Shown here piece by piece: positions 10,563 to 30,155 of a stretch of 64,000 nucleotides of DNA. The translations under genes and the position numbers were made by a program. Numbering within the stretch: the first letter of the stretch is position 1; every line of letters begins with the position of its first letter. The notes below the pieces were generated by a model that was not told the DNA's origin, ran no database searches, and worked only from the letters and a program-made list of their open reading frames with translations. The stretch comes from Clostridia bacterium (GTDB lineage: Bacteria > Bacillota > Clostridia > Acetivibrionales > DSM-27016): the NCBI GenBank assembly GCA_026414765.1, contig JAOAIJ010000038.1:1-64000 (forward strand). Reading direction: 5' to 3'.

Positions 10563-10623
10563 CTCGTTGTGCTGGCTGGTTGGAACGGAACTTGCAATAA
10601 AAATCAGCTGGCACAAGAGGCTA
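10559..10623. repeat. Dispersed hairpin repeat, copy A
   Basis: The left arm at 10566-10581 and right arm at 10602-10617 can pair over about 16 bases if GU pairs are allowed. The outer string TTAACTCGTTGTGCT at 10559-10573 recurs exactly, in reverse orientation, at 27432-27446. The segment GGAACGGAACTTGCAAT recurs with few changes near 60847. The copy overlaps the spike stop codon and fills most of the gap before the PAAR gene. Confidence 0.6.
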
Positions 10624-10693
10624 AATTAATCTGCGGTACCGGTGAAATTATGTTATAGAACCCGGTATGACGCTTTAATCGGGAGTGTGTTTT

Positions 10694-11080: not shown

Positions 11081-11126
11081 GTTTTATTGGTTTATTGAAA
11101 TGTTTTCCGGACAGCAGGAGGTATGT

Positions 11127-14500: not shown

Positions 14501-15757
14501 GCACGTACAAAATGTCTGACCAATATTAACCGGCAGTTATGTTTTGAACCTGGCTGTGTGACACTTATAGCAGTTCCACAGGTGTCTGATGACAAGCCTT
14601 TGCCCGGACCTGGACTTATAAGGCGGATAGAGGACTATTTGAAAGACCGTTTATCGGCAAATATGAAAACATGGCTAAATGTGATAGGGCCCGGATACAT
14701 AAAAGTTGCCGTGTATTTGGAAGTTGCTCCGGTTGACATAGACGATGCTCAAACCGTTAAGAACCGAGTAATAACCGCTTTGAAAAGCTTTTTCAATCCT
14801 TTGCGGGGGGGACCTGATTGTAGTGGATGGGAATTCGGAAGGGACGTATACCTTTCAGAAATATGCAGAGTTATAGAGAGTATCGAGGGTGTGGACCATG
14901 TTAATCTGGATACTATGGATATCCGTCCGAATATTGCCCAGAAGTATATAGAAATTGGAGACGACTTTGACTTTATTAATTTCATTGGAATGGAAATTCA
15001 CAAGGGAACACCGGTCGCCGTAAACATCCCGGATACGGGGTGTCCCCGGAAGTTGGCAGTCACTGCACAATCCGTGTTTATAACTTCAGATTTAAAGGGT
15101 TTGTATGTAAAAGGTTTTAAAGAGGGAGATAAAATTACAAGAATACTTGACATAGAGGTACAAGAAATTTCTGTAGAGAGCAAAACTATATGGATTAAGC
15201 CGGTGACCGATATGGTGGGATTTCCTTACGGCAGTTCTGTGACATCTGCCGATGGTACAAAAAGAGCAAGACTGGCCCAGGGAATATTACCGGAAAGTGT
15301 GACAAATACGGTTTTGATAGAGGGGGAAAACACTTCATTTTTCAGTGATCTGAAGCCTGGCAGCATACTTACCCTCTTCTATCCGTTTCCCATGACTGTA
15401 ACTGATGTATCTATGAATAAAGAGACTTTGGTTTTAGGTATAGAGCCTTATAGCAGCATACTGGATTTTCCTGCTGGGAGTGTTTTTTCTACTATGGACA
15501 ATTCAGTGAGATTGCCGCTGAAGCAAGCTGTAGATGCAAATAAAAATACTGGTTGTATTATACTGGAAAACTTTCTGGAAGGTGAAACCATGGCTGTATT
15601 AAGTAAGTATAAGCAATGTGAGAAAATAGACTTTACGGTAAAGGGTGTCCACCCGGTCAATGATACGGTTTATCTTGAGGAGAATTATCTTGTTTATTCC
15701 GGTGAGCATACGGTAAATATTGTGGATAAAGCAGCTAGGGGAAGGAGTGATGTGTAA
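11543..15757 (+). CDS. Large baseplate protein, J/gp6-like (Afp11-like)
   Basis: A 1404-residue baseplate assembly protein. The N-terminus (WNPPPEGDAGAMLHRIYARL) and the C-terminal half (FNPLRGGPDCSGWEFGRDVY, then IESIEGVDHV at about 1090-1115) mark the J/gp47 family that forms the baseplate wedge ring. Between them are three related beta domains with WEYxxGxxWxxL signatures at about residues 359, 518 and 709, each followed by a VxFxxP strand. A further beta-rich region of about 200 residues follows the J core. The ATG overlaps the gp25 stop and the end overlaps the next ATG. Confidence 0.87.
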   Translation: MPDKLPVLDNRILKDIMKDLYDMTKVHIPEWNPPPEGDAGAMLHRIYARLLEITLERLNKVPEKNLIAFLSTMGVNLLPASPAVVPLTFELMPGTEYALIPEGTMAGTEQVIFETEEDITAISSKIIKAFTINPFWESYSDITGIFGRGDSFGFSPFEGKHLLSYAMLFGHAMLLDYNKAKVEIKFKWKSQEISRQEFTKILERFKWRFIREENTVDLKVKASDITASDGIKKAGVVFENTAPPEMTAVKGPGICGSMENRWISMTMNTAHMDKRLLNDLMFTSVELVVSSQRIPPDTAFFNTAPVDITKDFYPFGEAPKTGDVFYLSCKEAFSKSQKNANCTIDLDFEIEASAGKIKWEYCSSSGWKELVPLSDSGQDFTGQRTVTFSTPSDIKKIRVPVEGMANYYYYVRASIADKELFPAPAFECISVQVKDPAANSSNNYLPLVFTSDSPVDDIVSGDFKLNGSLEYVDKSCAFPFGTDAKIGKTAYFALLEETKGGWKLEFSFSPKPKSEILWEYCKGKGMWEPLNVSDGTAVFTKKGMVNFKLPCDIQQEEICGQSNYWVRARIIRGNFGKPAEYIPVKSDDPSRGYRIATDSGKYIPPFIKSIRINYTSTVFPSVLSQSGFIYSDRTELNSNETFYTPADSVKNVKPYKYADARPSLYLGFDRFIQGQPVTIYASARPTCFSNSAENESITSDRTDENNRIGWEYFNGKEWKTLSVTDTTDNMKRSGIVKFLMPYDASPFSKFHAEEELYWIRAVSALDNPLDAQVLTGIYLNTVPALHGITKQEETLGSSNGQPGQIMRLTSVPVLEGIQVFVREYEPPSDNELCEIEQEEGRQSVILKVNPVTKEAETWVRWHEVSNFLMSNPKSRHYTFDYTKGTITFGDGKRGLIPPYGSNNITASYRTGGGTAGNIKKGSAIKVKSSIPGVSGVINPMDAEGGSEPETLDMARVRGPQVLKSRNYAVTSGDIEWLARQAAGTRIARTKCLTNINRQLCFEPGCVTLIAVPQVSDDKPLPGPGLIRRIEDYLKDRLSANMKTWLNVIGPGYIKVAVYLEVAPVDIDDAQTVKNRVITALKSFFNPLRGGPDCSGWEFGRDVYLSEICRVIESIEGVDHVNLDTMDIRPNIAQKYIEIGDDFDFINFIGMEIHKGTPVAVNIPDTGCPRKLAVTAQSVFITSDLKGLYVKGFKEGDKITRILDIEVQEISVESKTIWIKPVTDMVGFPYGSSVTSADGTKRARLAQGILPESVTNTVLIEGENTSFFSDLKPGSILTLFYPFPMTVTDVSMNKETLVLGIEPYSSILDFPAGSVFSTMDNSVRLPLKQAVDANKNTGCIILENFLEGETMAVLSKYKQCEKIDFTVKGVHPVNDTVYLEENYLVYSGEHTVNIVDKAARGRSDV

Positions 15758-17091
15758 TGCCTCTTTCAGTGCCTGATATAGATGACCGCACATATGAGCA
15801 GCTGGTGGCGGAAGCACGCACGCTGATACCCAAGAATTTTCCGGTATGGACAGACCATAATCCTTCCGATCCGGGGATTACTCTGCTGGAACTGTTTGCT
15901 TTTTTAATGGAAGCAGGTATTTATCAGATAAACAGGGTGCCTGAACAAAGCTTGGAGCACTTTGCCGGATTAATGGGCATTAAAAGGCAACAGGGTGAAG
16001 AAATCGAGCAAATGCTTTGCAGGGCAATGAAGGTCTTGACAGAAAAAAGTCGTGCTATTACTACGGAAGATATGATATATCTGATTCAGCAGCCCGGAAT
16101 ATTTTATGATACTACCACTGCGCTGAAACTAAAGTATTTTGCCGGAACTCCGGTTTGTGATATGGAGGTATCGGAAATCATAGGCAGCATCAGTGTTTGG
16201 CATGATGATGGAAGCAAAACGCTTGAAATAAGCATGGAGGCTGGAAAACGGCTTTTTGAAGGGGATGTCATATTGTTTGACGATAAAGGCAGGCTTGAGT
16301 GTGCTGTTGTAGAGAGAGCTGTTTATGGAGTGAAAACAACAACCGTAGTTTTAAAAACATCCACATACTTTAACCACGGGAAGAAGGCAAAAATCAGGAA
16401 AATAATATCCCCCATGGACCCTTGCAAATCCAGTCTTGCTGTTGCTGTAAAACAGGGTGAAAAGGGTATTGTCCTGAAAAATGCGATGGATGCAAAGCGT
16501 TCATATGTATTCCGTGTAGGTATGCCGGATTCATGCGACTATTTATGCGTGAATGAAGTAAATATTTCAAGGGTTGCGGTAGAATCTAAGAAAGACTTTG
16601 TAAATCTGATAATTGTTCCTTACAGCGATACCGAAGCTACACCGCAGCCATCTGATGACTTGCGCCAAAAGGTGTTTGAGTATATACGCTCCATTTGTCC
16701 AGTAAGTACTCGCATCCGTGTAAATAAGCCGGAATATGAGGATATTTGTATCCATATTTGTGCCGTACGGGAAAGAGGCAGTATCATAGACAAGGGTATG
16801 CTCCGGAGTAATATACATGAAGCTGTAAGAGATTTTTTGAATCCTCTTCCGGATAATGCGGGCGGAAAAGGGTGGGAATTCGGAAGAACTGTTTACCGTT
16901 CAGAACTATATAGAATCATTGAAGATGTAAAAGGTGTGGATCATGTAAAACAGCTTTTACTGAAGAAAGGCTCAGTTCCTTCCTTTAATAAAGAATGTGA
17001 CAGGCTTGTCAATGAAATCTGCCTTACGACAAGTACATCATTGGTAAGAGTAGGGGATGAGGCTGTCAGTATTGAAGTGATAGATGAATAG
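15757..17091 (+). CDS. Second baseplate J-like protein (Afp12-like)
   Basis: A 444-residue protein. It opens with PVWTDHNPSDPGITLLELFA, the usual N-terminus of the smaller injection-system J protein, and ends with LNPLPDNAGGKGWEFGRTVY plus IEDVKGVDHV, the same motif as in the preceding gene. The two therefore share a C-terminal fold and probably form a heteromeric wedge. The start codon overlaps the upstream stop (TAATG). Confidence 0.88.
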   Translation: MPLSVPDIDDRTYEQLVAEARTLIPKNFPVWTDHNPSDPGITLLELFAFLMEAGIYQINRVPEQSLEHFAGLMGIKRQQGEEIEQMLCRAMKVLTEKSRAITTEDMIYLIQQPGIFYDTTTALKLKYFAGTPVCDMEVSEIIGSISVWHDDGSKTLEISMEAGKRLFEGDVILFDDKGRLECAVVERAVYGVKTTTVVLKTSTYFNHGKKAKIRKIISPMDPCKSSLAVAVKQGEKGIVLKNAMDAKRSYVFRVGMPDSCDYLCVNEVNISRVAVESKKDFVNLIIVPYSDTEATPQPSDDLRQKVFEYIRSICPVSTRIRVNKPEYEDICIHICAVRERGSIIDKGMLRSNIHEAVRDFLNPLPDNAGGKGWEFGRTVYRSELYRIIEDVKGVDHVKQLLLKKGSVPSFNKECDRLVNEICLTTSTSLVRVGDEAVSIEVIDE

Positions 17092-17106
17092 GAGTGTGGT
17101 CTAAGC

Positions 17107-18105
17107 GTGGCAAAGAATATGCGGCCTATACAGTTTCTTGACTATCTTCCACAGTATTTGCGCAGTGGTGAAGCAGAGGGTATGAATATATTAAGCAGGT
17201 TTCTGGAGCCTATGGAAACCATGTTTGAGAATCTGGAAGCTGCAATTGAAGGAAACATTATTTCACTCACCTATATAGGCGGTGTGGGTAGAGTGCTGTC
17301 TGTAAAGGAATTTGAAAGCGGAGACATCAGGTTTGTAAACGGCACACCTGTAAGGATTCCCGGAACGGATAATTATTCAAGACTTTCAAAGGAAATTCCT
17401 GCGGGAGCAAAGGGTGTAAGCAATATTGAGGTTGAAGATGATGGATTTGCTGATCGCCTAAAAACCGGGGATGTCATCGAGGTCTTTTCCGGGGGAATTT
17501 CCGATTTGTTCAACCTTGCTGTTACCCCACCACCCGAATTCAGGTACACGCCTACTTCCGAATACGATTTTCTTGCATATATTGCAGGTTTCACAGCTTT
17601 GCCGCTGAGGGAGGATAAGTCTGCACAATGGAACCGCTCATTTTTGCAGGCAGCAATTCCTTTATACCGTGAACGCTATACTCTCAATGGGTTGAGAAAA
17701 CTGCTTGAGGAATGGCTCAAGGGTGAAATAATCAAGGGTACTGTTATACTGACAGACCTGACAAGGACACATACGGATGTTGACACAGTTTTTCAACTAG
17801 GCGATACGTCGGTACTGGGGGTTGATACAGTGCTCGGAGAGGGTCCCGCACATTTTTTTGTAGTGGACCTTGTGATAGACTCTACAGCACCTGTTATGCG
17901 CTGTCCGGAAGGAATATTTGCGTTTCAGAGGGCAGTAAAGTATTTTCTGGATGCTGAAAAACCAGCAAACAGTTACTACAGGCTTTGTGTCCATGCGAGC
18001 ACCATGCAGCTGGCGCCGGATAAAAAGACGCCTGAGGATACAGATGCACAAATTGGTGAAACCACCATGCTATACGGTGAACCATGGATAATAGAAGGTC
18101 GGTAA
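17107..18105 (+). CDS. Tail protein I-like baseplate protein
   Basis: A 332-residue protein with a GTG start. The opening FLDYLPQYLRSGEAEGMN, the LSRFLEPMETMFENLEAAI helix and the block FLQAAIPLYRERYTLNGLRK are typical of P2 gpI-like proteins in contractile injection clusters. Such proteins sit at the periphery of the baseplate and link it to the tail fibre, which is encoded next. Confidence 0.85.
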   Translation: MAKNMRPIQFLDYLPQYLRSGEAEGMNILSRFLEPMETMFENLEAAIEGNIISLTYIGGVGRVLSVKEFESGDIRFVNGTPVRIPGTDNYSRLSKEIPAGAKGVSNIEVEDDGFADRLKTGDVIEVFSGGISDLFNLAVTPPPEFRYTPTSEYDFLAYIAGFTALPLREDKSAQWNRSFLQAAIPLYRERYTLNGLRKLLEEWLKGEIIKGTVILTDLTRTHTDVDTVFQLGDTSVLGVDTVLGEGPAHFFVVDLVIDSTAPVMRCPEGIFAFQRAVKYFLDAEKPANSYYRLCVHASTMQLAPDKKTPEDTDAQIGETTMLYGEPWIIEGR

Positions 18106-18140
18106 TTTATATTATATTATTAAGGCAGGGGGATACATAA

Positions 18141-19352
18141 ATGTCGGATGAGATCAAACGCGTTAGTTATTTTGAGAGACAGTTCCTTAGAGCAAAGGAG
18201 TTTGTGGATGAACAGAAATACCATACCAGGCTTCACAGGGAGCACAACAAGAGGCTGCATACGACAGGGGTAGTTATTTCCGGATTTGAAGTTACTCCCA
18301 ATACTTTAGACCCGAATGACAAGACAAAAGTGCTGGTATTGGGTGGAATGGCTTTGGACTGTGAGGGAAGGGAGATATTCCTGTTTGAAACCTGTCCTTT
18401 GCCTATGCCGGGTAACGTTAATATGGTTGATATCTACGTATATTACAGTGAGGAGCCCGCAGAGCCAAGCAATGACCCGGGGGTTGCAGGCAATCATACC
18501 AGAATAGTTGAAAAACCCTGTTTTGCAGTTTCGCCTCGGGACAAGGTACCTGCAGGGGCTATCTATATTGCACAGGTCAAACTGAAAGACGGTATGGTGG
18601 AAGGTTCCGGCAGTATTACAGATAAACGTACCGTGGTAGTATCGACCATTGGAAATAATTCCATAGATGAGGTAATGCTGCGGAACAATTCCGTATCTAC
18701 ACGCACCATCAGAGATAATGCAGTTGATTCGAATAAGCTGCGTTCGGATGCAGTAAATGACACAAACCGTGCGGTGGGAACAGACCATATAAAAAACAAT
18801 GCGGTCACATCCGACAAGCTGCGCTCCGACGGGGCAAACGATGCAAACCGTGCAGTGGGGACAAACCATATAAGGAACAATGCAGTAACGGCAGCCAAAT
18901 TGCAGTCTGATACTTCAATTGATACAAACCGTGCAGTGGGTACAGATCATATTAAGAACAATTCTGTGACTTATGAAAAGCTTAGACATGATTCTTCAGT
19001 AGATGTATACCGTGCTGTTGGAACCGATCACATAAGAGACGGAGCAGTGACTTATGAGAAAGTAGACTGGAATATAAAAAATCTTCTTTTAGGCGGATAT
19101 ATTGCAGTCAATAGCGATGGAACAATATTAAGCAATTCTTACCATAACGTAACGTCCGTATACAGATTAAGAAAAGGTGAATATCAGATAAACTGGACAA
19201 AGCCGGTGAGCCCCTTTGTGCATTTCTCTTATCCATATGGGGACTATAGGGTAAACATATTGGGAACCAGCAGTGTCACAACAGTTATTGTCAGCAATAG
19301 TGCAGGTGTAAATGTTGATGGGTCTTTCTGCATTATGGCAGCACCATTATAG
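18141..19352 (+). CDS. Tail fibre-like protein with 27-residue repeats
   Basis: A 403-residue protein. Residues 1-160 are a conserved attachment domain (SYFERQFLRAKEFVDEQKYH). Residues 192-299 hold four 27-residue repeats built on NNAVTxxKLRSD...NRAVGTDHIK, followed by a partial fifth. These are the sort of repeats that form trimeric fibre shafts. The last 90 residues are a beta-rich tip (VYRLRKGEYQINWTKPVSPF) that could bind a target surface. It is the best candidate for the particle's receptor-binding protein. Confidence 0.8.
   Translation: MSDEIKRVSYFERQFLRAKEFVDEQKYHTRLHREHNKRLHTTGVVISGFEVTPNTLDPNDKTKVLVLGGMALDCEGREIFLFETCPLPMPGNVNMVDIYVYYSEEPAEPSNDPGVAGNHTRIVEKPCFAVSPRDKVPAGAIYIAQVKLKDGMVEGSGSITDKRTVVVSTIGNNSIDEVMLRNNSVSTRTIRDNAVDSNKLRSDAVNDTNRAVGTDHIKNNAVTSDKLRSDGANDANRAVGTNHIRNNAVTAAKLQSDTSIDTNRAVGTDHIKNNSVTYEKLRHDSSVDVYRAVGTDHIRDGAVTYEKVDWNIKNLLLGGYIAVNSDGTILSNSYHNVTSVYRLRKGEYQINWTKPVSPFVHFSYPYGDYRVNILGTSSVTTVIVSNSAGVNVDGSFCIMAAPL
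18714..19037 (+). repeat. Four tandem 81-bp coding repeats in the fibre gene
   Basis: Four in-frame 81-bp units, each encoding 27 residues that start with (N/D)NxV and end with RAVGTxHI(K/R), are followed by a partial unit to about 19070. DNA identity between units is highest around the AACCGTGCxGTGGGxAC segment. Such arrays can change length by slippage, altering fibre length. Confidence 0.85.
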
Positions 19353-19598: not shown

Positions 19599-19610
19599 AC
19601 GGGAAAATAG

Positions 19611-19645
19611 GGCTTTCAGCGCAAACTGAAAGCCTTACTTTCTTT
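19611..19645 (+). terminator. Rho-independent terminator of the injection operon
   Basis: A perfect 9-bp stem (GGCTTTCAG at 19611-19619, CTGAAAGCC at 19626-19634) closes a CGCAAA loop and is followed by TTACTTTCTTT. It cleanly separates the injection operon from the next cassette. Confidence 0.85.
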
Positions 19646-19738: not shown

Positions 19739-19754
19739 TTATTTGGAGGTAATT

Positions 19755-22700
19755 ATGTCAGAGCAGCGTATTAAGTTCAATATTGATGATTCATTTGAGA
19801 TATATCTTAGTGAGATTGAAGCAGGTAATCTGAGTTTATTACTTAAGGATGAGTTCCGGACAAAAGAATGGGCAGTAAGCTTCGGAATTATCCAATCCTA
19901 TATAGAGAACGGGTTTTATAAATATAATAATGATCAGTACGAGATCAAGAAAATTATTATTGATATGAGAGATCTGGAATGGGTTGATCCTATACCGTTC
20001 ATCAACCTGATACTCACACTGTACAGTTTTAAGAAGAGTAAAGAGGATAGAGAACTGGCATTTTACCTGCCCAGCGATAGTGAAGATAATAAACGGAAAT
20101 TATTGAAATATATTGCACAGGAAGGATTCTTAAAGCAGCTTATTTGCATAGGGGATGTATATTTCAACAAATCTAAATGTGATGATGATACTATAGAAAA
20201 GATGAAATTGTATGATATAGAATTAAGCTTTAATCGCTGCCAGGTGTTTCCCTTAAAAATAATAAATCCCTTTGAAATAGGGGATATTGATAATTACATA
20301 ACAAAAGAGATGAATAATATCAGACATGCCCTTCAACAAAAAAAGCTGACTTATACACAAGTCAATAGTCTCACTCATAAAATCAAACTAATATTGGTGG
20401 AACTTGTCCAGAATATAAGAGAACACGCATATCCCGGAGAGAAAAAGGGGTTTGGTTCGATATATATAAGGTATAGAGAGGGCTATAACTATAAGATGGA
20501 CTCAGACCAGAAGGAAAAATTAAAGAAGCGGATAGATGAGGAGCATATTCATAATCCACTTCTCACCAAGAACTTTTTCTATAATAACCCTCAGTTTATA
20601 GAATTGTATGTTGTAGATAATGGAATAGGGTATTCAAACACTGTTGTTGAGACGAAAAACAATGTATATCCTTTAAGAGAGTCCTTCAGAAAGACGTTTA
20701 TTCAGGGACACAGGGGAAAAACGAATAATAAGGAATTTAAATCGGAAAAAGGCGGACATTCGTTAATATACCAGCTTCTTTCACAAAACAAGGATTTTAT
20801 ATGGATAAAGGATATAAATGAATACTTGGGAACATACTGCTATGAACATGATAACAGTACTCTGGATTCGCAAAAAAAATTCTATGAAAATGACTATGCA
20901 TCAAGTCTGAAAAGTAAAAGTGTACAGTGTTTCGCTTTTCTGGCGAGGTTACGCATCGTTAAGGACGACTATGAGAAGTATGTAAATCAGGAGACAAATT
21001 CTGAGTACTACACTAAAGAAGCAGCGAATCTGCAACCGTATGTCAGCAATAGCTTTATAAAGACGTTTGAGACAGAAAAATTCAGTTTTAAACCTGACCT
21101 GGATAAACTGATGAAAATATATGCTGATGAAAAGCATATTTTGAATATAAAAAAAAGCATTAAGCAGCGGGAGATATATTTTAAGGATTCAAGGTTTGAA
21201 AATATTGAAAGTAATAGAGACGAGGATTTGTTAATAAATTATAGATATAACCCGTCCAGTACAAAAAACTATATTTTGCTGCCGAAGACAAATCAAAGCA
21301 AAATGTCTGTTTATCAAAGCATAGATGACTTTTTAGGTGAAAGCGAAAACGAAAAAATCAAGTTAGTTGTTGCAGATATCTCTACAGAGGATTTTTATGT
21401 ATTCATATCTGCACTTAATAATGTTAAGTTCTTCAGGAACTCCAAAACCTTTTCTTTTCCGAAAAAGGTTGAAAAAATCGTTTTGGTTTCTAAAAGGCTT
21501 TCAATATGTATTTTAGAAAGAAATTATAATGTTAGTGAGGGAGAATACGCATTTTCAATAGATGAAACTGAAATGGTGAAGTTTATGGATGGAAACACAG
21601 AGGAGGAATCCGAGTTTTCCGTAAACTCAGTATACCATCTGCTTGCGCTTCTAAAGTATTATGACTCACATTTGTTATGGAACAGCATTAAAAACAGTAG
21701 TTCACAAGAAAGCTCGTTATATGTTAATGAGGAAATTATCTGGGATGAAAACAAAAAACCTATCAAAGGGTACATAAATTTTCCTCAACTGGTATCCGAA
21801 TCACTATGTCTGGAGCTGTTCCGCGTGGCATTGGAAAGAAGTACTATAATATTTAACAGTAATAATGTCTACTTTAAAAATGTTGATCATATGACAAAAA
21901 GGATTGTATATGATTTAAATGTTAACACTGAAATCAATGATGACAGTAATATAATAAATGTGGGCAGTGTCTATATGTCAGGGAAAACTGAGACAGATAA
22001 TAAAGACATTAAAGTCAAGAATGAAAATTCCGTAAACATATATTTTTTCAAGCATCCCGAATCAATAATGAAAGTGAACTCATTATTTCTTTGGCCCCAA
22101 CAGGATTGGATAGATAAAACCATGACAAAACCGTTTCATAAGGAGAATGCCGAGAAACTGAAGAGGATAGGAAAAACTCCGATGATAGCCCCAGATGGAC
22201 AGAAGTACTTCTTAAGGAGTTTAAGACGTGATATTGATGGAAATACTCCTTACAGGAGAAATCTGGTAGATAGCTATAACAGCGACTATCAAAGACTATC
22301 TACTGAATTTATCAGGCTGGGACATATTGAGTATAACGGAAATCACGACTTTGTTTTTATAGATATTGTAAATGAGTTTAAATCAAGTTTTTATGAGCAA
22401 GGGCATCTGGCTGCATTTTTGATAAGCGAAATATATATTGCTTTAGGTAATAATGAGAGGGATATGGATGAATACCTTTCGGATATGGGAAAGGAAAAGT
22501 GGAAATCAAAAATTATTCAATATATTGCAGATCATTATTCGGAAAAGGGAATCAGTGAGAGTAATAAATCAGATATGATTGTCTACCTGTCTCAACACAA
22601 CACTGATGTGATCATGCAGATTGTAAAACAGGTTTTCAATAAAAAGATACATGATAAGATAATTGCGTTAGTGCCAATAAAGCAGGGAAGGGACGGCTCC

Positions 22701-24590
22701 TCATTCCTGATATCTCCTCTGACCCTGGATGTCATTGAGAAAAGGCTTAGCCAGAGCCAGATAGGCCGTGTGATTATATTTGATGATATAATAGTCTCGG
22801 GAAGGACAAGAAAGGAGCTTAAGCATGTACTGACATCACTTAAAGCAAAGAGTGTCCATACCCTCTCGCTCATCGACAGGCAAAGATTGCCTATTTATGC
22901 TCCTTACAGCGAGCGGCACCGATCCTACTGGCGCACTGACATACCCAGATTAAGCACCAGAAACTTATGTGTTCTGTGCAATAGCATTTTACTTGTGAAT
23001 AATTTCAAGCGCCACCTTGCATCAAACATGGCTAAAGAAAGGATCGATTACTGGATAGAAGCCTGGGGAAAGGTCGATTCGATGAATATCCACAGTAATC
23101 ATGGCCTGAGGCAGAGAAGTATAAATCTCAAACAAGGTTTTTTTGAACATTCGGATGGGCAGAGCGTAGAGATTAAGACAGATATAGGAATGTTTTTATA
23201 TTGTTCGGAGATGCTGTCTTTAATTTCTGAAGATAACACCATCACAGACATCATAGCAAATAATCCGGAGCTGAAACCTGAGGATATCATATTGCTTGTC
23301 GGAAGTATCCTTATATTGTATGGATTCGGGCTTTCCAGCAATTCGGTATATGAAATGCTGGTCCTGCTGATAGAGAGTCTTTATAAAATAAAGGATATAA
23401 ATAACTATACTGCTTTAGCTGCATTAGTTCTAATAGGTCAGCAGCCTGACACCATCAGCAGTATATTGACGAAATTTAACGAAGTTTCATTTTCGTTAAC
23501 TAATTTTGATTTCTGGATTGTTTTATCCTATTTCTCAAAAAATCATGTACGGCATATAAAAGACTCAATTAATAATGATGCGGACAGATTACTGCTATGC
23601 GATAGGGAAATAAACAATTTTTATAACAACTTCAATTTTGAATTGTATCATAAAGGCGGCAAGCGGCATAATCGCCCGATAATTGATTTTGTTGACACTC
23701 TGAAGTCTAAAAAGGAATATGAAACAGGCTGCAAAATGGAATTGCATAGCATTGTCAATTTATTAAACAGCTTGGATCTGGTAAAGGACTGTCTGATAAA
23801 TATTCCTGTTTCGTATTATTACATATATAAAAACTATAGTATGACTAATGCCGATAAGGTAATAAACCCAAGGGATTATATCAGGGACAGGATTCAGGAG
23901 ATTGAGAGTTTCATAGAAAAATTAAGAAACCGTACAAATATTTTAAAAGAATACAAAGAAGTGTTTGCAATTGAAAAAGATGATGTTGTGAGCATGCTTG
24001 AGGATATTGAAAAACTTTACCTGAGCTTTATTAATGATATATATCAATGGCTCTTTATCAGTGTAGATACTGAAGCTGAAAAGATGAAACTATCGAAGGA
24101 ATTGTTAAAACAAAAGTTGCAGGTTCTTATAGACAAAAAAATAAGCAGTATTCATAAGGAAAGCAGCAGTGGGTACAACGCGAGATTCTGCAAAATTGAC
24201 GTAAACTTCCCTCAAGATGGTGCAGGCAACATAATAAACAGTGCATACTCATATTATTTTGATAATCTGATTGCATATGAAGTGGAAAATTTGCTAACTG
24301 ACATAAGGCATTCTCAGGTTAAGAAACATAACCCGGTTGATAAATCGGATTCAGACATGGCAAATCTCTGGATTTACGTAAAAGTAAGGGCGAAAGCTCT
24401 TTATATAGAATTCTATTATAATTACAGCAGGGATGTTGATGAGATTAATCAAATTAAAGAGGGTAAGAAGCGGTATAGCGAAGAGCATCTGGAAGAACTG
24501 GGTGGTAAGATAAGGCATAAGAGGATAGTGAGGAACCGTGAAGAGTACTTGCGGTCACAAATGATTATTCCGGCTTTGAGATATAAATAG
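19755..24590 (+). CDS. STAS-like / GHKL ATPase / phosphoribosyltransferase multidomain protein
   Basis: A 1611-residue cytoplasmic protein with no membrane segment. Residues about 20-135 look STAS-like (KKIIIDMRDLEWVDPIPFIN). Residues about 185-345 are a GHKL ATPase: N box ELVQNIREHAY (216-226), G1 box DNGIGY (288-293) and G2-like GGHSL (333-337). There is no DHp domain, so it is not an ordinary histidine kinase; it resembles RsbW-type ATPases. Residues about 920-1070 form a phosphoribosyltransferase-like region with a complete PRPP loop DDIIVSGRT (1010-1018). An earlier segment VGSVYMSGKT (736-745) looks like a second loop that lost its acidic pair. A CVLC pair lies at 1072-1075; the last 500 residues are helical. 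The start at 19755 follows GGAGG at 19745. It is 15 bp from the next gene. A signalling or defence role is inference. Confidence 0.7.
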   Translation: MSEQRIKFNIDDSFEIYLSEIEAGNLSLLLKDEFRTKEWAVSFGIIQSYIENGFYKYNNDQYEIKKIIIDMRDLEWVDPIPFINLILTLYSFKKSKEDRELAFYLPSDSEDNKRKLLKYIAQEGFLKQLICIGDVYFNKSKCDDDTIEKMKLYDIELSFNRCQVFPLKIINPFEIGDIDNYITKEMNNIRHALQQKKLTYTQVNSLTHKIKLILVELVQNIREHAYPGEKKGFGSIYIRYREGYNYKMDSDQKEKLKKRIDEEHIHNPLLTKNFFYNNPQFIELYVVDNGIGYSNTVVETKNNVYPLRESFRKTFIQGHRGKTNNKEFKSEKGGHSLIYQLLSQNKDFIWIKDINEYLGTYCYEHDNSTLDSQKKFYENDYASSLKSKSVQCFAFLARLRIVKDDYEKYVNQETNSEYYTKEAANLQPYVSNSFIKTFETEKFSFKPDLDKLMKIYADEKHILNIKKSIKQREIYFKDSRFENIESNRDEDLLINYRYNPSSTKNYILLPKTNQSKMSVYQSIDDFLGESENEKIKLVVADISTEDFYVFISALNNVKFFRNSKTFSFPKKVEKIVLVSKRLSICILERNYNVSEGEYAFSIDETEMVKFMDGNTEEESEFSVNSVYHLLALLKYYDSHLLWNSIKNSSSQESSLYVNEEIIWDENKKPIKGYINFPQLVSESLCLELFRVALERSTIIFNSNNVYFKNVDHMTKRIVYDLNVNTEINDDSNIINVGSVYMSGKTETDNKDIKVKNENSVNIYFFKHPESIMKVNSLFLWPQQDWIDKTMTKPFHKENAEKLKRIGKTPMIAPDGQKYFLRSLRRDIDGNTPYRRNLVDSYNSDYQRLSTEFIRLGHIEYNGNHDFVFIDIVNEFKSSFYEQGHLAAFLISEIYIALGNNERDMDEYLSDMGKEKWKSKIIQYIADHYSEKGISESNKSDMIVYLSQHNTDVIMQIVKQVFNKKIHDKIIALVPIKQGRDGSSFLISPLTLDVIEKRLSQSQIGRVIIFDDIIVSGRTRKELKHVLTSLKAKSVHTLSLIDRQRLPIYAPYSERHRSYWRTDIPRLSTRNLCVLCNSILLVNNFKRHLASNMAKERIDYWIEAWGKVDSMNIHSNHGLRQRSINLKQGFFEHSDGQSVEIKTDIGMFLYCSEMLSLISEDNTITDIIANNPELKPEDIILLVGSILILYGFGLSSNSVYEMLVLLIESLYKIKDINNYTALAALVLIGQQPDTISSILTKFNEVSFSLTNFDFWIVLSYFSKNHVRHIKDSINNDADRLLLCDREINNFYNNFNFELYHKGGKRHNRPIIDFVDTLKSKKEYETGCKMELHSIVNLLNSLDLVKDCLINIPVSYYYIYKNYSMTNADKVINPRDYIRDRIQEIESFIEKLRNRTNILKEYKEVFAIEKDDVVSMLEDIEKLYLSFINDIYQWLFISVDTEAEKMKLSKELLKQKLQVLIDKKISSIHKESSSGYNARFCKIDVNFPQDGAGNIINSAYSYYFDNLIAYEVENLLTDIRHSQVKKHNPVDKSDSDMANLWIYVKVRAKALYIEFYYNYSRDVDEINQIKEGKKRYSEEHLEELGGKIRHKRIVRNREEYLRSQMIIPALRYK

Positions 24591-24605
24591 GAGGAGTGGA
24601 TATAT

Positions 24606-26099
24606 ATGGATTTTAATTTACTTGTCATTGACGATTTACTTACCAGTGAGCGGAGGGAGGTTTATAAGAAAGTCTTGTCTCCTAAATTCAAACTGCCATA
24701 TATCGATGATCCTGATTATGATGTAACAAAAATAAGAGAGATACTGGCGACTGATAAAAACATACACGGATACTTGTTTGATGTAAATTTACAGGAATGG
24801 AGAGTAAATATACAAAGCCTTCTGAAAACACTGTGTGATAACAGAAAGGACGCAGTTGTATTTCTTGTCAGCAGTGATTGGGAGGAAGATCAGGGGAAAT
24901 TATTCAACTATCTGAACGAGATTAGAAATAACAGTGACATTATGATAGACGGGTTATTCAAATGGCAGAATTTCAAGGAGATATACGACTCCTCAGAAGC
25001 CAGCAGTTTTAACAATATTATTAATACAATTCATACAAGACTTGTGAATTACTACTTAAGCAAAACAGCATCACTGAATATATCAGAAAACCAGAAGCTG
25101 ACATTATTACATTTGTCGGATTTGCAGTTTGGTGATGACAACCAGATGTTTCCGCAATATAACACTATATACAACTTTTTAGATAGGGAAAACCTTATTC
25201 CGGATCTTCTTATTTTATCAGGGGATATTGCATATAGCGGGAAAGCGAGGGAATATAAGCTTGCTGAGAAATGGCTCATTGAATTCACCAAACGGCTTTG
25301 GCCCGGTAATAATGCAAATATCTCTAAAAGGATTCTTATAGTGCCAGGCAATCATGATTTCAATTTTGATGCATGTGCAGGGAATTATTATGAATACAAG
25401 TTCTCAAAAAATGCTTATGAGCAGAGAAGCGTTCAGGAAAACGAAAATCAGGAACTAGGGCTGTATAATTTTAAAAGATTTGCATATGAGATGACAAAGG
25501 ACGAAACCTGGATACTTAACAAGGAAAACTATTTCTATGTCAATAATATGTTCCTGCATCTGGGAGTGTGCTTCCTTCATATTGACACAATTTCCATGAT
25601 AAATGATATTGGCAAGCATATAGGAGAAAGGGTCAGCATTTCCGATAACTATGAAAGCTTGCTTAATCAGCAGATTTCACCAAATCGTGGGAAGAGGGAC
25701 ATATATACAATAATACTGTCGCATTTTTCTCCTCAGAGGTATGGGTGGGGTGCGGATGATGCAGCAAAGAAGACTGTCTGGAGAAAAATGACGGACATAA
25801 TAGATACTATGAAGGCCAACCTTTATTTATACGGGCATGAGCATAAGTATTCGAGACAGTTCCTTAACTGCAGGGAGGGAAGGTACACGGATAAACTGGC
25901 ATCAATCGGGGCAGCATCCCTTTTTATGAACAACAAAAAAAGGGAGGATGATTATACCAGAGGTTTTTGTGTTTATGAGCTGGAGCGGGAAGATTCTGTA
26001 GTTAGGCGTGTTAAAGTCAACCCGGTGGTAATACAGAATAACAGGATAGATTTTGAAAAAGATGAGTTTACGATTGAACCTAAGGATATTGTTTATTAA
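24606..26099 (+). CDS. Receiver-like domain fused to calcineurin-type metallophosphoesterase
   Basis: A 497-residue protein. Residues 1-150 resemble a response-regulator receiver: acidic pair D9-D10, phospho-acceptor position D59 in YLFDVN, hydrophobic strand with SS after VVFLV, and a lysine in DGLFKW. Residues about 160-430 are a calcineurin-like phosphoesterase with SDLQFG (D172), GDIAYSG (D207), GNHD (N249-D251), LSHFSP and YGHEH (H411, H413). The usual DxH of motif I is DxQ here, which may change metal binding. Substrate is unknown; family members act on phosphoesters including cyclic nucleotides and nucleic acids. It follows the ATPase/PRTase gene closely (AGGAGGAGT before the ATG), so the two probably act together. 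Confidence 0.8.
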   Translation: MDFNLLVIDDLLTSERREVYKKVLSPKFKLPYIDDPDYDVTKIREILATDKNIHGYLFDVNLQEWRVNIQSLLKTLCDNRKDAVVFLVSSDWEEDQGKLFNYLNEIRNNSDIMIDGLFKWQNFKEIYDSSEASSFNNIINTIHTRLVNYYLSKTASLNISENQKLTLLHLSDLQFGDDNQMFPQYNTIYNFLDRENLIPDLLILSGDIAYSGKAREYKLAEKWLIEFTKRLWPGNNANISKRILIVPGNHDFNFDACAGNYYEYKFSKNAYEQRSVQENENQELGLYNFKRFAYEMTKDETWILNKENYFYVNNMFLHLGVCFLHIDTISMINDIGKHIGERVSISDNYESLLNQQISPNRGKRDIYTIILSHFSPQRYGWGADDAAKKTVWRKMTDIIDTMKANLYLYGHEHKYSRQFLNCREGRYTDKLASIGAASLFMNNKKREDDYTRGFCVYELEREDSVVRRVKVNPVVIQNNRIDFEKDEFTIEPKDIVY

Positions 26100-26771: not shown

Positions 26772-27296
26772 ATGAATTGGTATGTACTTTTTGTAAGGAC
26801 AGGTCAGGAACACAGGGTGGAACGGTTCTTGAAAGTACGGCTGGAGGATGATATGTATGCGCCGTTTGTACCTTTACATGAAATGTTTTTAAAAACCTCC
26901 GGAGTGGTAAAAAAAGTGGTGAAGCCGCTGTTTCCGGGCTATGTGTTTATAGAATCTGACGCACCCTGCCAGGAGCTTTTAGAGAGAACAAATACTTTTG
27001 CCTATACACTGAGTGATGTTGTCCGTATATTGAAGTATTCCGACAGAGAATTTGCGATGAGGGAAAGTGAAAAGCAGATGTTGCTCAGCTTGTGCAACCA
27101 GGATTATTGTATAGAATCATCAGGGGGGATTATCGAAGGTGATAGGATACATATAATGCACGGACCTCTCAGGGGGCGGGAGAGTATAGTGAGGAAGATA
27201 GACCGGCATAAAAGGAAGGCATGGATTGAGATGGAGTTTATGGGGGACAGAAGGTTGGTTGGTGTGGCGTTGGAGATTGTGGCAAGGGTAGGGTAG
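26772..27296 (+). CDS. loaP: LoaP-type transcription antiterminator (NusG paralog)
   Basis: A 174-residue protein. Residues 1-115 are a NusG N-terminal domain (MNWYVLFVRTGQEHRVERFL, then KPLFPGYVFIE) that binds RNA polymerase. Residues about 125-174 are a KOW domain (EGDRIHIMHGPLRGRESIVR). Housekeeping NusG usually sits next to secE and rplK; this copy instead stands before a biosynthesis-like cluster, as LoaP proteins do. LoaP is known in Firmicutes to bind an RNA hairpin in the leader of antibiotic operons and allow read-through of terminators. Here the likely target is the cluster from 27473 on. The ribosome site GGGAGG precedes the ATG. Confidence 0.85.
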   Translation: MNWYVLFVRTGQEHRVERFLKVRLEDDMYAPFVPLHEMFLKTSGVVKKVVKPLFPGYVFIESDAPCQELLERTNTFAYTLSDVVRILKYSDREFAMRESEKQMLLSLCNQDYCIESSGGIIEGDRIHIMHGPLRGRESIVRKIDRHKRKAWIEMEFMGDRRLVGVALEIVARVG

Positions 27297-27363
27297 GTAT
27301 TGCTTTTGTAAAACTTTAATCATATTAAATTTGATTATTTAGTTATTTGCTTAATCTATTGAA

Positions 27364-27446
27364 CTAGCCGGTTTTGATTGCGAGCTTCATTAATATGCTC
27401 TAGGTCACTGCACAAGCAATTGCAACCAACTAGCACAACGAGTTAA
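27364..27446. repeat. Dispersed hairpin repeat, copy D
   Basis: Arms CTAGCCGGTTTTGATTGC (27364-27381) and GCAATTGCAACCAACTAG (27416-27433) pair with several GU positions, with an inner GAGC...GCTC stem. The outer string at 27432-27446 is the exact complement of copy A at 10559-10573. Its place between loaP and the next gene makes it also a candidate LoaP recognition hairpin, though the related copies elsewhere argue against a dedicated role. Confidence 0.55.
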
Positions 27447-27472
27447 CTTATAGGAAAGGTTGTTTAAGAGGT

Positions 27473-29095
27473 ATGAGGTCATCTGTTTTTAGAGTTATTG
27501 ATAGCATTACTGAAAATACTGATAATTACACATGGAAGGAGATAAGCTGTTTCTATAAGCCGTGGGCAATTCTGTTTGAGTCTTTTAAGCCCGGGTATTT
27601 CAATTTGTTTCTGTTTTACTTAAGTTTTTATGACTCATTTAAGGTAGATGGATGGTTTTCGGATAAATATTTAGAAAAATACCATGGAACATTATTCTAT
27701 CAGTTTTTTGAATTTAGTAAAAATGTACTTCAAAGTAAATTTGGAGTACATTTTAAAACTGTTGAATTTTCATCAGAACAGGAAATGCATGAGAAAATTA
27801 GATGCGAAATTGATAATGGTGCACGCATATTAGTACCAGGAGATCTTTTCTGTATATTCTATAATGTAGATGACTATAAAAGGACACACCGCCCACATTT
27901 TTTTATTATAAAGGGCTATGATACGGAAAGGGAGATTTATTTTATATTGGATTCTGTACATATCAATTATGGTACTGATGCTGCATATAAAAATTTTGCA
28001 ATGAAATTCTCCGATATGTATGAAACAAACTATTATTATTTTAAGGATATTGTACAAAACCGCTACAAGCAGTGTTTTTGGTCAATAAGCAATTGTGATA
28101 CCATGCCAGATACAGATATTCCTGACGTACTTTTAGAGCACGCTGATATTTTAAATTTGATTAATAAAAACGAAATTGAATATGAATATGTAGAACTTCA
28201 GACTATCAGGAATGTAGAATTAAAAGGGTCTAATGATGATATAAGGGAAATGTCTGTCAAGAGTAATTTTAAGACTGTCTATTATGATCTCTTGTTTACT
28301 TATTTAAGAGATGCTGATATTAGCGAAGAACTAATTTCTGAATTAGGGCATTATAAAGACAAGGTTGTTGAGTGCTGGGGATTAATAAGAAACAGAATTA
28401 TCTATAACGTTACTAAAAAGGAAAGGGATTTTAGCAAAATAAACAGGCTGATTGAGACGGGAATAACTAATGAAAGAGTATTCAGGGATAGATTTGTAGA
28501 AATCATTTCAGAATCTAATCTTGAGAAACTTAAAAATATAAAAAGTGAAAATGAAGAAAGTATGGATTTTACGGAAGAGAATAACTTCAGAGCGGCAATT
28601 ATTCAAGAAAAAGACAAAATAAAAATTGTTCATTCTCCCGATAAGGTATATAATTTGTGGGTTTTGCAGAATGATGCACCCCAAATGTTGTTATATGCAA
28701 AACAAAATACTAATTTCTGTTTTGAGACGAAAGTTTCTGTTAATTACGCTAAAGGGAGTTACTTCCAGTCTGGATTGATTCTAAAACTAAATGATGGGAC
28801 AAAATATTTGTTCGGAAATGAAGAGGGCAAAAGTGTATGTGTACTATGTCCTGAATATGATAGCGACAGTCTTTTGTTTAAAAAGTTCTTTCCAATAAAC
28901 GAGCTATATTTAAAGGTTGAAAAGCAAAAAGATTTATATAGCTTCTATTATAGATTACACGGAGGTAGCTGTTGGAACCTTGGCTATACACTAAAGTCAC
29001 CTGCAAGCGCAAAATGCTTTGGATTATTTTCTAAGACATGGGAACCTATGATGCTTACCGTTGAATTTTCTAATATTAATTATACAGAGAGTTAG
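27473..29095 (+). CDS. BtrH-like papain-fold protein fused to DUF1349-like domain
   Basis: A 540-residue protein. Residues about 15-190 resemble the BtrH N-terminal domain, a papain-like fold first seen in butirosin biosynthesis (acyl transfer). A possible triad is visible: C26 in EISCFYKPWAILFE, H142 in RPHFFIIKGYD and D160 in YFILDSVH. Residues about 390-540 resemble the DUF1349 concanavalin-like fold (YFQSGLILKLNDGTKYLF, LYLKVEKQKDLYSFYYR, FGLFSKTWEPM). The start codon and ribosome site are not sharply defined: AGGAAAGG at 27452-27459 precedes the ATG by 13 nt. With LoaP upstream and exporters downstream it probably modifies or transfers a small product. Substrate unknown. Confidence 0.65.
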   Translation: MRSSVFRVIDSITENTDNYTWKEISCFYKPWAILFESFKPGYFNLFLFYLSFYDSFKVDGWFSDKYLEKYHGTLFYQFFEFSKNVLQSKFGVHFKTVEFSSEQEMHEKIRCEIDNGARILVPGDLFCIFYNVDDYKRTHRPHFFIIKGYDTEREIYFILDSVHINYGTDAAYKNFAMKFSDMYETNYYYFKDIVQNRYKQCFWSISNCDTMPDTDIPDVLLEHADILNLINKNEIEYEYVELQTIRNVELKGSNDDIREMSVKSNFKTVYYDLLFTYLRDADISEELISELGHYKDKVVECWGLIRNRIIYNVTKKERDFSKINRLIETGITNERVFRDRFVEIISESNLEKLKNIKSENEESMDFTEENNFRAAIIQEKDKIKIVHSPDKVYNLWVLQNDAPQMLLYAKQNTNFCFETKVSVNYAKGSYFQSGLILKLNDGTKYLFGNEEGKSVCVLCPEYDSDSLLFKKFFPINELYLKVEKQKDLYSFYYRLHGGSCWNLGYTLKSPASAKCFGLFSKTWEPMMLTVEFSNINYTES

Positions 29096-29684
29096 TTATT
29101 GCAGTAAACTACCGGATTAAGTGTTATCTTGGAGATAGTGTCGAAGAGTAAGTAAGGATGGTATTTTAAGAATTCAGCTAAATTGTAAACGTCAATATAA
29201 AGGGTGCCAAAAATAAAGAAGCTGTAAAAATTTTGATGGTTTGTAACAAGGGAATAACTCCTTCTTGGTAAGAAGTATTTACATAATATTAAGGAGGAGT
29301 TTTTTGTGAGTACAATTCTAAAAAATGTAATTAGGGAAAAAATAGAGGAGAATGATTTCAAGAATCCAGAATAACATTTGACATTCTTTCTCCTGTGCTT
29401 TCTACAGTGTACAACATTCATTTGTTTATTATGTAAATAAAACCGGGTATGCTGTGTATACTAATATATTTAGTTTTCAAAGTACAATAGTAAAATTTAT
29501 TAACCCTCTTTACCATTTCCCTTAAAGCTTTGCTGACTTAAGGATAATGTATATCCCAATGCTACGGGGGAATGACCTGAGAGGAGGGTAGGAAGAATCG
29601 TAAGTTTTTGTCCTAAACAACAAAAGTTTATATAGAATTACGTACTATATTCCGGTATTGTATTGATTATTGAGGTGATTTTTT
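29096..29684. other. 589-bp gap with candidate short peptides
   Basis: No long ORF on the plus strand. The main content is a short ORF with an excellent ribosome site (29306-29374). A start-less reading frame ending at about 29271 gives ILMVCNKGITPSW before its stop, which looks like a gene remnant. The minus strand has a 109-codon open frame (29092-29421) with no ribosome site and biased composition; I regard it as chance. Confidence 0.5.
29306..29374 (+). CDS. Short peptide, possibly a frameshifted precursor
   Basis: A GTG start follows AAGGAGGAG at 29291-29299, the strongest ribosome site in this cluster. The ORF encodes 22 residues beginning MSTILKNVIREKIEEND and ending FKNPE. Adding one A at GAATAACA (29369-29376) would remove the stop and extend it by 21 residues (ITFDILSPVLSTVYNIHLF, then IM) to the stop near 29436. 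A charged helical leader followed by a hydrophobic tail is how many ribosomal peptide precursors look. Either the gene is frameshifted, or the short form is real, or the match is chance. Confidence 0.4.
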   Translation: MSTILKNVIREKIEENDFKNPE

Positions 29685-30155
29685 ATGTTCAAACAAAGCT
29701 TAAAACAGAAATTTTTCTTTTTAGCAGTAAAGTTTCCGGCTGCAACAATATTGGTTATTGCAATGACTTTAACCTGTTTACTTATAATTACATATTCATC
29801 ATACACAAATGTATACACAAAACGAAGTGCAGTAATCGACTATAGGAAAGACAATGTAAAAACATTCATTGAATTATATGTCAATAAAAAAGATATAGGG
29901 CAAGCTGCTATTAATAACGATGTGTTGTGGTATTTAGGGCAGGAAGGCCAACGGTATAAGGCACCGATTGTTGAAATTAAAGATATCCCCGAAAAAAACT
30001 CATTTTATTTACATATAGAGCCGGTACAGGAAGAAATTCAAAAAGAATTTAAAAATAAACCCACAGGAGTTTACTCTGTCACTGTAGAGATTTTAGCAGG
30101 AAAAGAAAAGATTATTAAAAAGTTGTTCGAGGGTAATCGGGAGGCTGCTCGATGA
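29685..30155 (+). CDS. One-TM protein of unknown function, exporter-associated
   Basis: A 156-residue protein with a single membrane segment at about 18-40 (FPAATILVIAMTLTCLLIIT) and a positively charged N-terminus, so the remaining 115 residues probably face outward. The C-terminal part (SFYLHIEPVQEEIQKEFKNK, then GVYSVTVEILAGKEKIIKKL) recalls the end of membrane-fusion proteins, but the long coiled coil is missing. GAGGTGATTTTTT precedes the ATG, and the stop overlaps the next ATG by 4 bp. I infer an accessory part of the ABC exporter. Confidence 0.65.
   Translation: MFKQSLKQKFFFLAVKFPAATILVIAMTLTCLLIITYSSYTNVYTKRSAVIDYRKDNVKTFIELYVNKKDIGQAAINNDVLWYLGQEGQRYKAPIVEIKDIPEKNSFYLHIEPVQEEIQKEFKNKPTGVYSVTVEILAGKEKIIKKLFEGNREAAR

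Follow-up and report, generated by a model that had tools for sequence, protein, structure and literature searches.

STAS-GHKL kinases, PRTases and metallophosphoesterases are each tied to anti-phage defence, and parts of all three types appear to be united in the two genes examined here. CapK is a STAS-GHKL kinase which lies beside immune operons and is activated by single-stranded DNA; in the accessible part of the source the same is suggested for VapK (PMC13373217). Phage protection is provided by a pair of DprA and a PRTase, and retrons probably use PRTases as effectors; how PRTase effectors act was termed unknown in 2022 (PMC9122126, accessible part). Furthermore, PRTases are described as typical of type III-A1 retrons (PMC12548924, accessible part). 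For the DS-8 and DS-9 systems, the available text reports that the catalytic residues of the phosphoesterase are required for phage protection (PMC13092281). The legend of Fig. 6F in that report lists HATPase and REC among the domains of predicted systems, while the accessible text names no such system; a relationship between these predictions and our pair is conceivable.

The window, a stretch of 64,000 nucleotides from a Clostridia bacterium (contig JAOAIJ010000038.1), carries a giant gene followed by a receiver-metallophosphoesterase gene. This pair is kept in distantly related bacteria and may be a so far undescribed module for stress or virus defence. The earlier note on this DNA knew of no named system with such a composition; the pair fits none of the characterised systems tested, and no name or description of it was found in the libraries and literature searched.

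CapK/CapS and VapK/VapS/VapC may resemble the giant in placing STAS before GHKL in a single polypeptide (PMC13373217, accessible part), the giant's own STAS part being weakly supported. However, CapK carries an HTH (same source) and none was matched in the giant, nor was a CapS, VapS or VapC partner matched among the 20 neighbours scanned with Pfam, small ORFs being left out. Unlike in CapK and VapK, the STAS-GHKL unit of the giant shares its chain with a PRTase and has a receiver-phosphoesterase as its partner. The PRTase-type domain is shared with ShosT-type and type III retron PRTases, but here it lies inside a protein of 1500-1600 aa. In a PADLOC scan of four giants (window, L050, L032 and L049; L037 was left out), ShosT was the best match of the window and L050 proteins at a very low 18.5 bits each; the L032 and L049 giants gave no ShosT match, which weighs against the explanation preferred below. 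Membership of ShosTA or the DprA-PRTase pair was rejected as no DprA-like partner was matched by Pfam in the 20 scanned neighbours. No reverse transcriptase was matched among the scanned neighbours.

Gene 2 shares a calcineurin-type phosphoesterase with DS-8 and DS-9, and the DS9_1 model length (486) is near its 497 aa. DS-9 was nevertheless rejected: the gene 2 protein reaches 44.3 bits (window) and 31.8 bits (L032) against the NF053862 cut-off of 420, and the DS-9 partner is a HAD phosphatase whereas here the giant is the partner and the next genes are NusG-like and BtrH_N-like. The DS-9 model matched weakly in 109 of 348 genomes, in none of the 348 above cut-off, and the loci examined (~3 kb each, with little flank) held no giant relative. 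DS-8 was rejected at 58 bits against the NF053861 cut-off of 790; its phosphoesterase is a NACHT fusion, whereas the Pfam scan found no NACHT and motif I of the window pair is DxQ. Plasmid metallophosphoesterases linked to GASH are 21-25% identical to the window protein (alignment of six), but have no receiver domain and carry DxH at motif I in all six. The gene following them is annotated GASH in five cases and hypothetical in the sixth; the gene after the window phosphoesterase is NusG-like, and membership of the GASH system was rejected. Rv0805-type phosphodiesterases provide the nearest solved structures to a five-row profile of the phosphoesterase (E 6.5e-6), although matched over ~90 residues only, and Lmo2642 is also among the nearest structures. 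The Rv0805-type enzymes are not known to have a receiver domain or a giant partner.

Layout and surroundings of the gene pair

The earlier note had read a 1611-aa protein followed 15 bp later by a second open reading frame, and both frames were found so (Table 1). Gene 1 encodes 1611 aa from an ATG, or 1615 aa if an upstream TTG is used. From the stop frequency of the other two forward frames, the chance of a 1611-codon open frame is ~2e-75, so that gene 1 is not a chance opening. GGAGG precedes both starts, at ~19745-19749 for gene 1 and at ~24590-24594 for gene 2, where it abuts the stop codon of gene 1.

The pair is flanked by a contractile injection system (CIS), whose genes lie directly upstream, and by a natural-product-like cluster. 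Two claims about its borders stood in part. A terminator-like hairpin does lie to the left, but the region holds five such sites against a shuffle mean of 3.4 (sd 2.3), which is near the shuffled level. The pair was also said to be AT-richer than its flanks: its GC content of 35.4% is below the 43.9% of the left flank, but not below the 34.0% of the right neighbours (26772-33651). At gathering level, Rfam found nothing between 15000 and 36000.

Table 1. Features of the gene pair and its left border (positions in the window)
Feature	Positions	Strand	Basis
Terminator-like hairpin, left of pair	19608..19637	+	12-pair stem, T-rich tail
Gene 1, STAS-GHKL-PRTase giant (predicted), 1611 aa	19755..24590	+	ORF; relatives
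STAS-like domain, aa 1-145	19755..20189	+	profile, weak
Predicted GHKL ATPase domain, aa 165-400	20247..20954	+	hhalign profile
GHKL N box ELVQNIREHA, aa 216-225	20400..20429	+	E216, N220, E223, H224 invariant in 4/4
GHKL G1 box DNGIG, aa 288-292	20616..20630	+	DxGxG in 4/4
GHKL G2-like box GGHSL, aa 333-337	20751..20765	+	window sequence
Middle region, aa 400-840, conserved	20952..22274	+	no credible Pfam match
Predicted PRTase domain, aa 845-1110	22287..23084	+	hhalign and PDB profile matches
PRPP-type loop DDIIVSGRT, aa 1010-1018	22782..22808	+	DD, G1016 invariant in 5/5
WRxDxPxLxxxxxCxxC motif, aa 1059-1075, after PRTase core	22929..22979	+	invariant residues
His 1305	23667..23669	+	invariant in 5/5
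C-terminal domain, aa 1480-1611, faintly GHKL-end-like	24192..24587	+	hhalign
Gene 2, receiver-metallophosphoesterase (predicted), 497 aa	24606..26099	+	ORF
Receiver-like domain, aa 1-150	24606..25055	+	profile and invariant residues
Calcineurin-type metallophosphoesterase, aa 165-460	25098..25985	+	PF00149, E 9.3e-14
Gln 174, motif I DxQ in place of DxH	25125..25127	+	sequence comparison

Domains of the two proteins

The STAS assignment of the N-terminus of the giant is weakly supported. The best PDB match of the STAS-like profile (A14) is the anti-anti-sigma protein TM1442 (E 0.041), the following matches are unrelated, and Pfam STAS_2 appears in the L037 giant only (E 0.13). W76, D78 and P79 are invariant in all four sequences compared; WxDP stands in the window protein at the presumed place of the phospho-serine DS site of classical STAS domains.

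Alignment rows that spanned under 45% of a segment were excluded by rule when segments were compared. Compared by hhalign with 30 HATPase_c domains of its own genome, the giant segment aa 190-400 (four rows) gave 95.4 (E 1.8e-8) against 0.3 for a reversed control. The region has no Pfam match and its profile no PDB sequence match at E up to 1. The GHKL boxes and the complete PRPP-type loop of the earlier note were all located in the window protein; in those three relatives in which the third box is seen, it is TGLxxLG. An N box and DxGxG within an HATPase-like profile place this region, by prediction, in the GHKL superfamily.

Beyond the middle region, aa 930-1110 (five rows) gave 89.6 (E 1.9e-6) against eight PRTases of the same genome, the reversed sequence giving 0.4. 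With E allowed up to 1, this profile has 28 PDB matches, every one a PRPP-type protein, the best at E 0.0042. The Pfam PRTase match of the window giant lies below cut-off. Profile similarity together with the PRPP loop argues for membership of the PRTase superfamily. The last Thr of the loop is present in only two of the five giants, so the PRTase may be non-standard. After the PRTase core, W1059, R1060, D1062, P1064, L1066, C1072 and C1075 are invariant in all five giants, and this motif is a possible metal site.

The C-terminal domain compares with HATPase_c at 39.5 (E 3e-4), across 25 residues only, and with whole kinase cores at 13.9-15.7; it has no Pfam match and only weak, unrelated PDB matches. 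Reading the C-terminal half as a histidine kinase found no support: its DHp similarity is no better than the reversed control (0.2-0.3 against 0.1-0.2). Of 30 kinases, the 19 in which an H box could be recognised entered this comparison. Matches to EAL (E 0.0043, L037), TPR_14 (E 0.0031, L032) and an Rrn6 beta-propeller (E 0.0024, window) are repeated in no other relative and were thus taken as chance.

Gene 2 clearly belongs, on its profile, among predicted phosphoesterases. Motif I is DxQ in four of the five module members (DxH in L050) and DxH in all 29 other phosphoesterases compared; DxQ may mark a separate phosphoesterase branch. The receiver-like assignment of the N-terminus is moderately supported. 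Response_reg is found in three relatives at E 3.3e-4, 0.0071 and 0.22, all below cut-off, with no match in the window or L032 gene 2 protein. Against the PDB at E up to 1, 14 of the 15 profile matches are receiver domains (best 0.068). D9, D10, D59 and S89 are invariant in all five proteins; the receiver Lys is present in two and missing in three.

Relatives in other genomes

Distant relatives of the giant occur in four further genomes, one of them a Comamonadaceae MAG, the other three coming from samples of that MAG's family or class. The earlier note had pointed to the neighbourhood of homologues as a check, and in all four further loci the two genes are adjacent, the receiver-phosphoesterase gene following the giant on the same strand. 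The pair thus stands together in unchanged order and strand in five of five loci, window copy included. Because it recurs in other genomes, chance or artefact was ruled out. Per domain, the two window proteins and their relatives are 16-30% identical, and active-site residues are conserved across both proteins. With a probable Bacillota host and a Comamonadaceae relative, the pair seems to be kept across phyla.

The module is rare: G813 itself aside, there was one match in 369 genomes and two in 331, which weighs against the preferred explanation. Single-protein searches with the giant returned its own copy alone in 60, 391 and 398 genomes (overlapping sets); a first genome-contig scan gave no giant relative and scans of viral contigs no relative. 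Plasmid and phage collections held no giant with either the window or the L032 protein as query, which also weighs against that explanation. Apart from itself, the gene 2 protein alone had a single weak match in 60 genomes (G051, E 2.4e-5); it matched 12 plasmid records weakly as a phosphoesterase, and no phage record.

The notion of a mobile defence cassette is weakly supported. In its favour, and in that of the preferred explanation, the G887 locus (only one of the five) sits between TnsA-like/AAA-TniB-like and TniQ genes of Tn7-like transposition. Against both, no defence gene was matched by Pfam among the 20 neighbours scanned in the window; against the cassette, no integrase was matched among them either.

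A possible sensor-effector module and its rivals

Tentatively, we prefer to see in the pair a sensor-effector module of two conserved genes that acts on nucleotides and is plausibly tied to phage or DNA damage, its function being predicted from sequence. The earlier note's view that the first protein may sense or signal with a nucleotide-derived product and the second respond is likewise a prediction. We count for the module the five loci with their conserved active-site residues, the GHKL and PRTase profiles with reversed controls, the PRPP-type PDB matches, the nearness of Rv0805, the findings on CapK and on PRTases cited above, and the likeness, far below cut-off, to the DS-8 and DS-9 phosphoesterases; the GHKL profile without a PDB match, the receiver Lys missing in three of five and the final PRPP-loop Thr missing in three of five are counted against it. 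The STAS-GHKL unit would work in the manner of the CapK/VapK kinases, which have a link to single-stranded DNA, and would keep the PRTase inactive in the resting state. A phage or DNA-damage signal could then lead to ATP binding or hydrolysis and release of the PRTase, which, with PRPP as substrate, would convert a base or nucleotide or reduce its pool. The gene 2 protein, docked via its receiver domain, would hydrolyze a nucleotide phosphoester as a second effector, and the stressed or infected cell would be expected to arrest growth. A PRTase domain with its own sensor and phosphoesterase would offer a handle on the action of PRTase effectors. In a bolder form, which we consider improbable, the giant would be an immune enzyme making a new PRPP-derived signal nucleotide once its STAS-GHKL sensor encounters phage or damaged DNA, and its partner a DxQ phosphodiesterase, gated by an atypical receiver, acting on the same molecule. 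If true, this would be a previously unknown nucleotide-signalling immune circuit.

Possible, though on the unlikely side, is a stress or regulatory module unrelated to phages, in which the STAS-GHKL unit would take part in partner switching, a PyrR-like PRTase fold would sense PRPP or a nucleotide, and the receiver-phosphoesterase would adjust the level of a cyclic nucleotide. The incomplete PRPP loop of three of the five members, the PyrR proteins that the PRTase profile matches in the PDB, the nearness of the Rv0805 and Lmo2642 structures and the want of matched defence neighbours at the window locus all suit such a regulator; a rare, patchy spread and the Tn7-like surroundings in G887 are more in keeping with an accessory gene than with a housekeeping regulator. 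The tight coupling of the two genes could also indicate a toxin-antitoxin-like pair, where the PRTase of the giant would produce a toxic nucleotide or exhaust PRPP, with the receiver-phosphoesterase as an antidote that breaks down the product. Toxic PRTases that come with partner proteins have been described (PMC9122126, accessible part), but the phosphoesterases of DS-8 and DS-9 serve defence and are not antidotes (PMC13092281, accessible part), and we regard this reading as unlikely.

Less probable still is a two-component phosphorelay, in which the C-terminal half of the giant, as a histidine kinase of divergent type made up of His 1305 and the C-terminal GHKL-like domain, would phosphorylate the receiver at Asp 59 and thereby switch the phosphoesterase. 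The invariance of His 1305 and of receiver D9, D10 and D59 in all five members, and the short HATPase_c similarity of the C-terminal segment, are what such a relay would predict; against it stand the DHp comparison, a C-terminal domain without DxGxG, with GG absent from L050, and without Pfam or relevant PDB matches, and a receiver Lys in just two of five. Lastly, the position of the pair directly downstream of CIS genes in the window would suit a cargo or regulator of that system. No CIS domain was matched among the neighbours scanned (part only) at G887, G813 and G1398, G1354 being left out, and we judge this role very improbable: a terminator-like site stands between the CIS and the pair, and the GC content shifts there.

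The gene pair and its relatives

Both open reading frames of the module were confirmed at the places claimed for them in the earlier note, on the forward strand and 15 bases apart (see table). GGAGG precedes the start of each gene, and that of gene 2 abuts the stop codon of gene 1.

Coordinates of the module genes and of neighbouring features in the window and at two relatives
Locus	Feature	Position	Strand	Description
Window	Gene 1 (giant)	19755-24590	+	ORF, 1611 aa from ATG; 1615 aa from upstream TTG
Window	Gene 2 (second protein)	24606-26099	+	ORF, 497 aa
Window	Contractile injection system genes	6839-19352		Directly left of pair; Pfam: tube with LysM, hub-like, baseplate V, PAAR, gp25, baseplate J
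Window	Probable natural-product cluster	26772-33651		NusG-like, BtrH_N, two ABC exporters; same low-GC block as pair
G887	Tn7-like genes	L043 1240-5679, L037 11923-14856		Either side of module
G1398	AAA/STAND-type ATPase gene	L050 3857-5185		Directly after receiver-phosphoesterase

As a single query, the giant retrieved its own copy alone among 60, 391 and 398 genomes (overlapping sets) and nothing among plasmids and phages. Degenerate motif patterns were then run over genome contigs, and among the stretches listed (at least 593) at least one relative was confirmed, L032 in a Comamonadaceae MAG (G813). This giant is matched across query residues 43-1226 (E 8e-34; 25% identity over the full alignment), and the next ORF, overlapping it by 4 bases, encodes a relative of the second protein. 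A two-row profile of both giants was used to search the family and class of L032, in which it matched 2 of 369 genomes (G813 itself and G887) and 3 of 331 (G813, G1354, G1398), respectively. The giant genes of G887, G1354 and G1398 are each followed by a receiver-phosphoesterase gene in the same orientation. The two genes are thus adjacent in 4/4 relatives, or 5/5 members with the window, a count of giant-bearing loci: the relatives were found with the giant as query, so phosphoesterases lacking a giant would go unseen.

The giant is split over two reading frames in G887 (L037 about 9003-9150), and in G1354 both the giant and the second gene are split (L049 about 5837-5922 and 1532-1644). The breaks of the giant sit at different places in these two of five genomes, and decay, sequencing error or frameshifting may account for them. 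The G1398 copy is cut off by the contig start; all three copies may be decayed or misassembled.

Domain composition

The giant gives almost no signal against Pfam (PF00156, E 0.0027, below cut-off), but the GHKL boxes and the PRPP-type loop previously named are present in its sequence. Residues 190-400 align with 30 HATPase_c domains of the same genome (hhalign 95.4, E 1.8e-8; reversed control 0.3), whereas other segments, forward or reversed, reach at most 2.7, the C-terminal end excepted. E216, N220, E223, H224, D288, G290 and G292 are invariant (4/4). This region had no Pfam match and no PDB sequence match at E up to 1. Residues 930-1110 align with eight PRTases of the same genome (89.6, E 1.9e-6; reversed control 0.4; other segments at most 1.4). 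At E up to 1 the PRTase profile gives 28 matches in the PDB, every one to a phosphoribosyltransferase, a PyrR protein, a PRPP-binding enzyme or PRPP synthetase (HPRT best, E 0.0042; others 0.04 to 0.73). D1010, D1011 and G1016 of the loop are invariant in all five members, and its final Thr is found in the window and L032 only. C-terminal to the core, a WRxDxPxL...CxxC motif (5/5) may form a metal site.

The N-terminus is suggestive of a STAS domain: its profile best matches the anti-anti-sigma factor TM1442 in the PDB (E 0.041, unrelated proteins next), and of four segments one has a STAS_2 match (E 0.13). W76, D78 and P79 are invariant (4/4). Within the last 130 residues of the giant, a stretch of 25 is similar to the terminal part of a GHKL domain (hhalign 39.5, E 3e-4); against whole kinase cores this C-terminal region scores 13.9-15.7. 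It had no Pfam match, and PDB matches were weak and unrelated. Two-component membership is disfavoured: sequence on either side of the invariant His 1305 lacks DHp similarity. Structure predictions from two-row alignments (n=2; mean pLDDT 33.6 and 30.4) were set aside.

The second protein carries a clear Metallophos domain (Pfam, E 9.3e-14), whose profile lies nearest in the PDB to Rv0805, Lmo2642, SbcD and the phosphohydrolase 2dxl, which we take to be GpdQ. Motif I reads DxQ in four of five members; the position is His in 29/29 other phosphoesterase ORFs read at the fetched loci (own copy excluded). Of the five receiver segments, three have a Response_reg match below cut-off (E 3.3e-4, 0.0071, 0.22) and two, those of the window and L032, have none. 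The five-row profile gives 15 PDB matches, 14 of them to receiver domains (E from 0.068 upward) and one to a designed protein. All five members share D9, D10, D59 and S89; the receiver Lys is kept in two of five.

Genomic setting

Twenty ORFs, ten per side, were scanned with Pfam (E up to 0.001). To the left, six match contractile-injection or phage-baseplate families, including a baseplate J ORF of 1405 aa, and four have no match. Beyond them, the ORF at 3880 reads as a putative sheath-like protein. To the right follow a NusG-like gene (presumably LoaP-type, judged by position), a BtrH_N protein, an ORF without match and two ABC transporters, then PocR/AraC, Fe-ADH, two DAK genes and a hydrolase. 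The pair had been described as AT-richer than its flanks. This holds on the left (35.4% versus 43.9% GC) but not on the right (34.0%), so the AT-rich block extends past the pair. No tRNA was found in the window, and Rfam gave no match at gathering level in 15000-36000. Protein similarities point to a probable host in Bacillota: the PRPP synthetase of this genome comes closest to 1dkr, the Bacillus subtilis enzyme (146.5 bits; other chains at most 110 bits), and among plasmid records the DhaK encoded in the window is closest to those of Listeria (78%) and Paenibacillus (67%).

The proposal of a mobile defence cassette is weakly supported: Pfam matched neither a defence gene nor an integrase among the 20 window neighbours, and Tn7-like genes were seen at one of five loci, G887. 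TnsA-like, AAA/TniB-like and two TniQ genes lie on either side of the G887 module, the TnsA-like match barely above cut-off and the TniB match sub-threshold; the ~26 kb between them contains, besides the module, long ORFs that Pfam does not match (1459 and 1766 aa). The Tn7-like genes suggest that this copy may be mobile. At G1398, the ATPase gene after the receiver-phosphoesterase is a possible third component.

Possible function and known systems

The STAS-GHKL part of the giant would act as a sensor-switch, its PRTase domain would use or sense PRPP, and the phosphoesterase would carry a domain for docking or control. Such a mechanism agrees with published findings. CapK, a STAS-GHKL kinase activated by ssDNA, controls an immune operon, and a similar kinase controls a VapC toxin (PMC13373217). 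A DprA-PRTase pair gives phage protection (PMC9122126), and PRTases are probable retron effectors (PMC9122126; PMC12548924). DS-8 and DS-9 require their metallophosphoesterases (PMC13092281). The parts and these findings together favour, tentatively, a nucleotide-targeting sensor-effector module in a DNA-damage or phage response; the main rival, a non-immune regulatory role, is only somewhat less likely.

In line with the earlier note, no named system of this composition was found in the profile libraries or literature searched. One caution is a figure legend in PMC13092281 that includes HATPase and REC among the domains of predicted defence systems, to one of which this pair may be related. 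In NCBIfam the second protein shows weak similarity to two anti-phage phosphoesterases, DS-8 (58 of 790 bits) and DS-9 (44.3 of 420 bits); both scores are too low for membership, and GASH and ShosTA each fail a tested feature. The giant may belong with CapK/VapK, although Pfam matched no CapS/VapS-like partner gene among the 20 scanned neighbours. The novelty is the combination, the folds being already known and the function putative. Separately, GASH-type metallophosphoesterase operons were observed on plasmids (L005-L010), several conjugative or mobilizable, in Simplicispira, Bradyrhizobium, Rhizobium, Pantoea, Klebsiella and Paraburkholderia.
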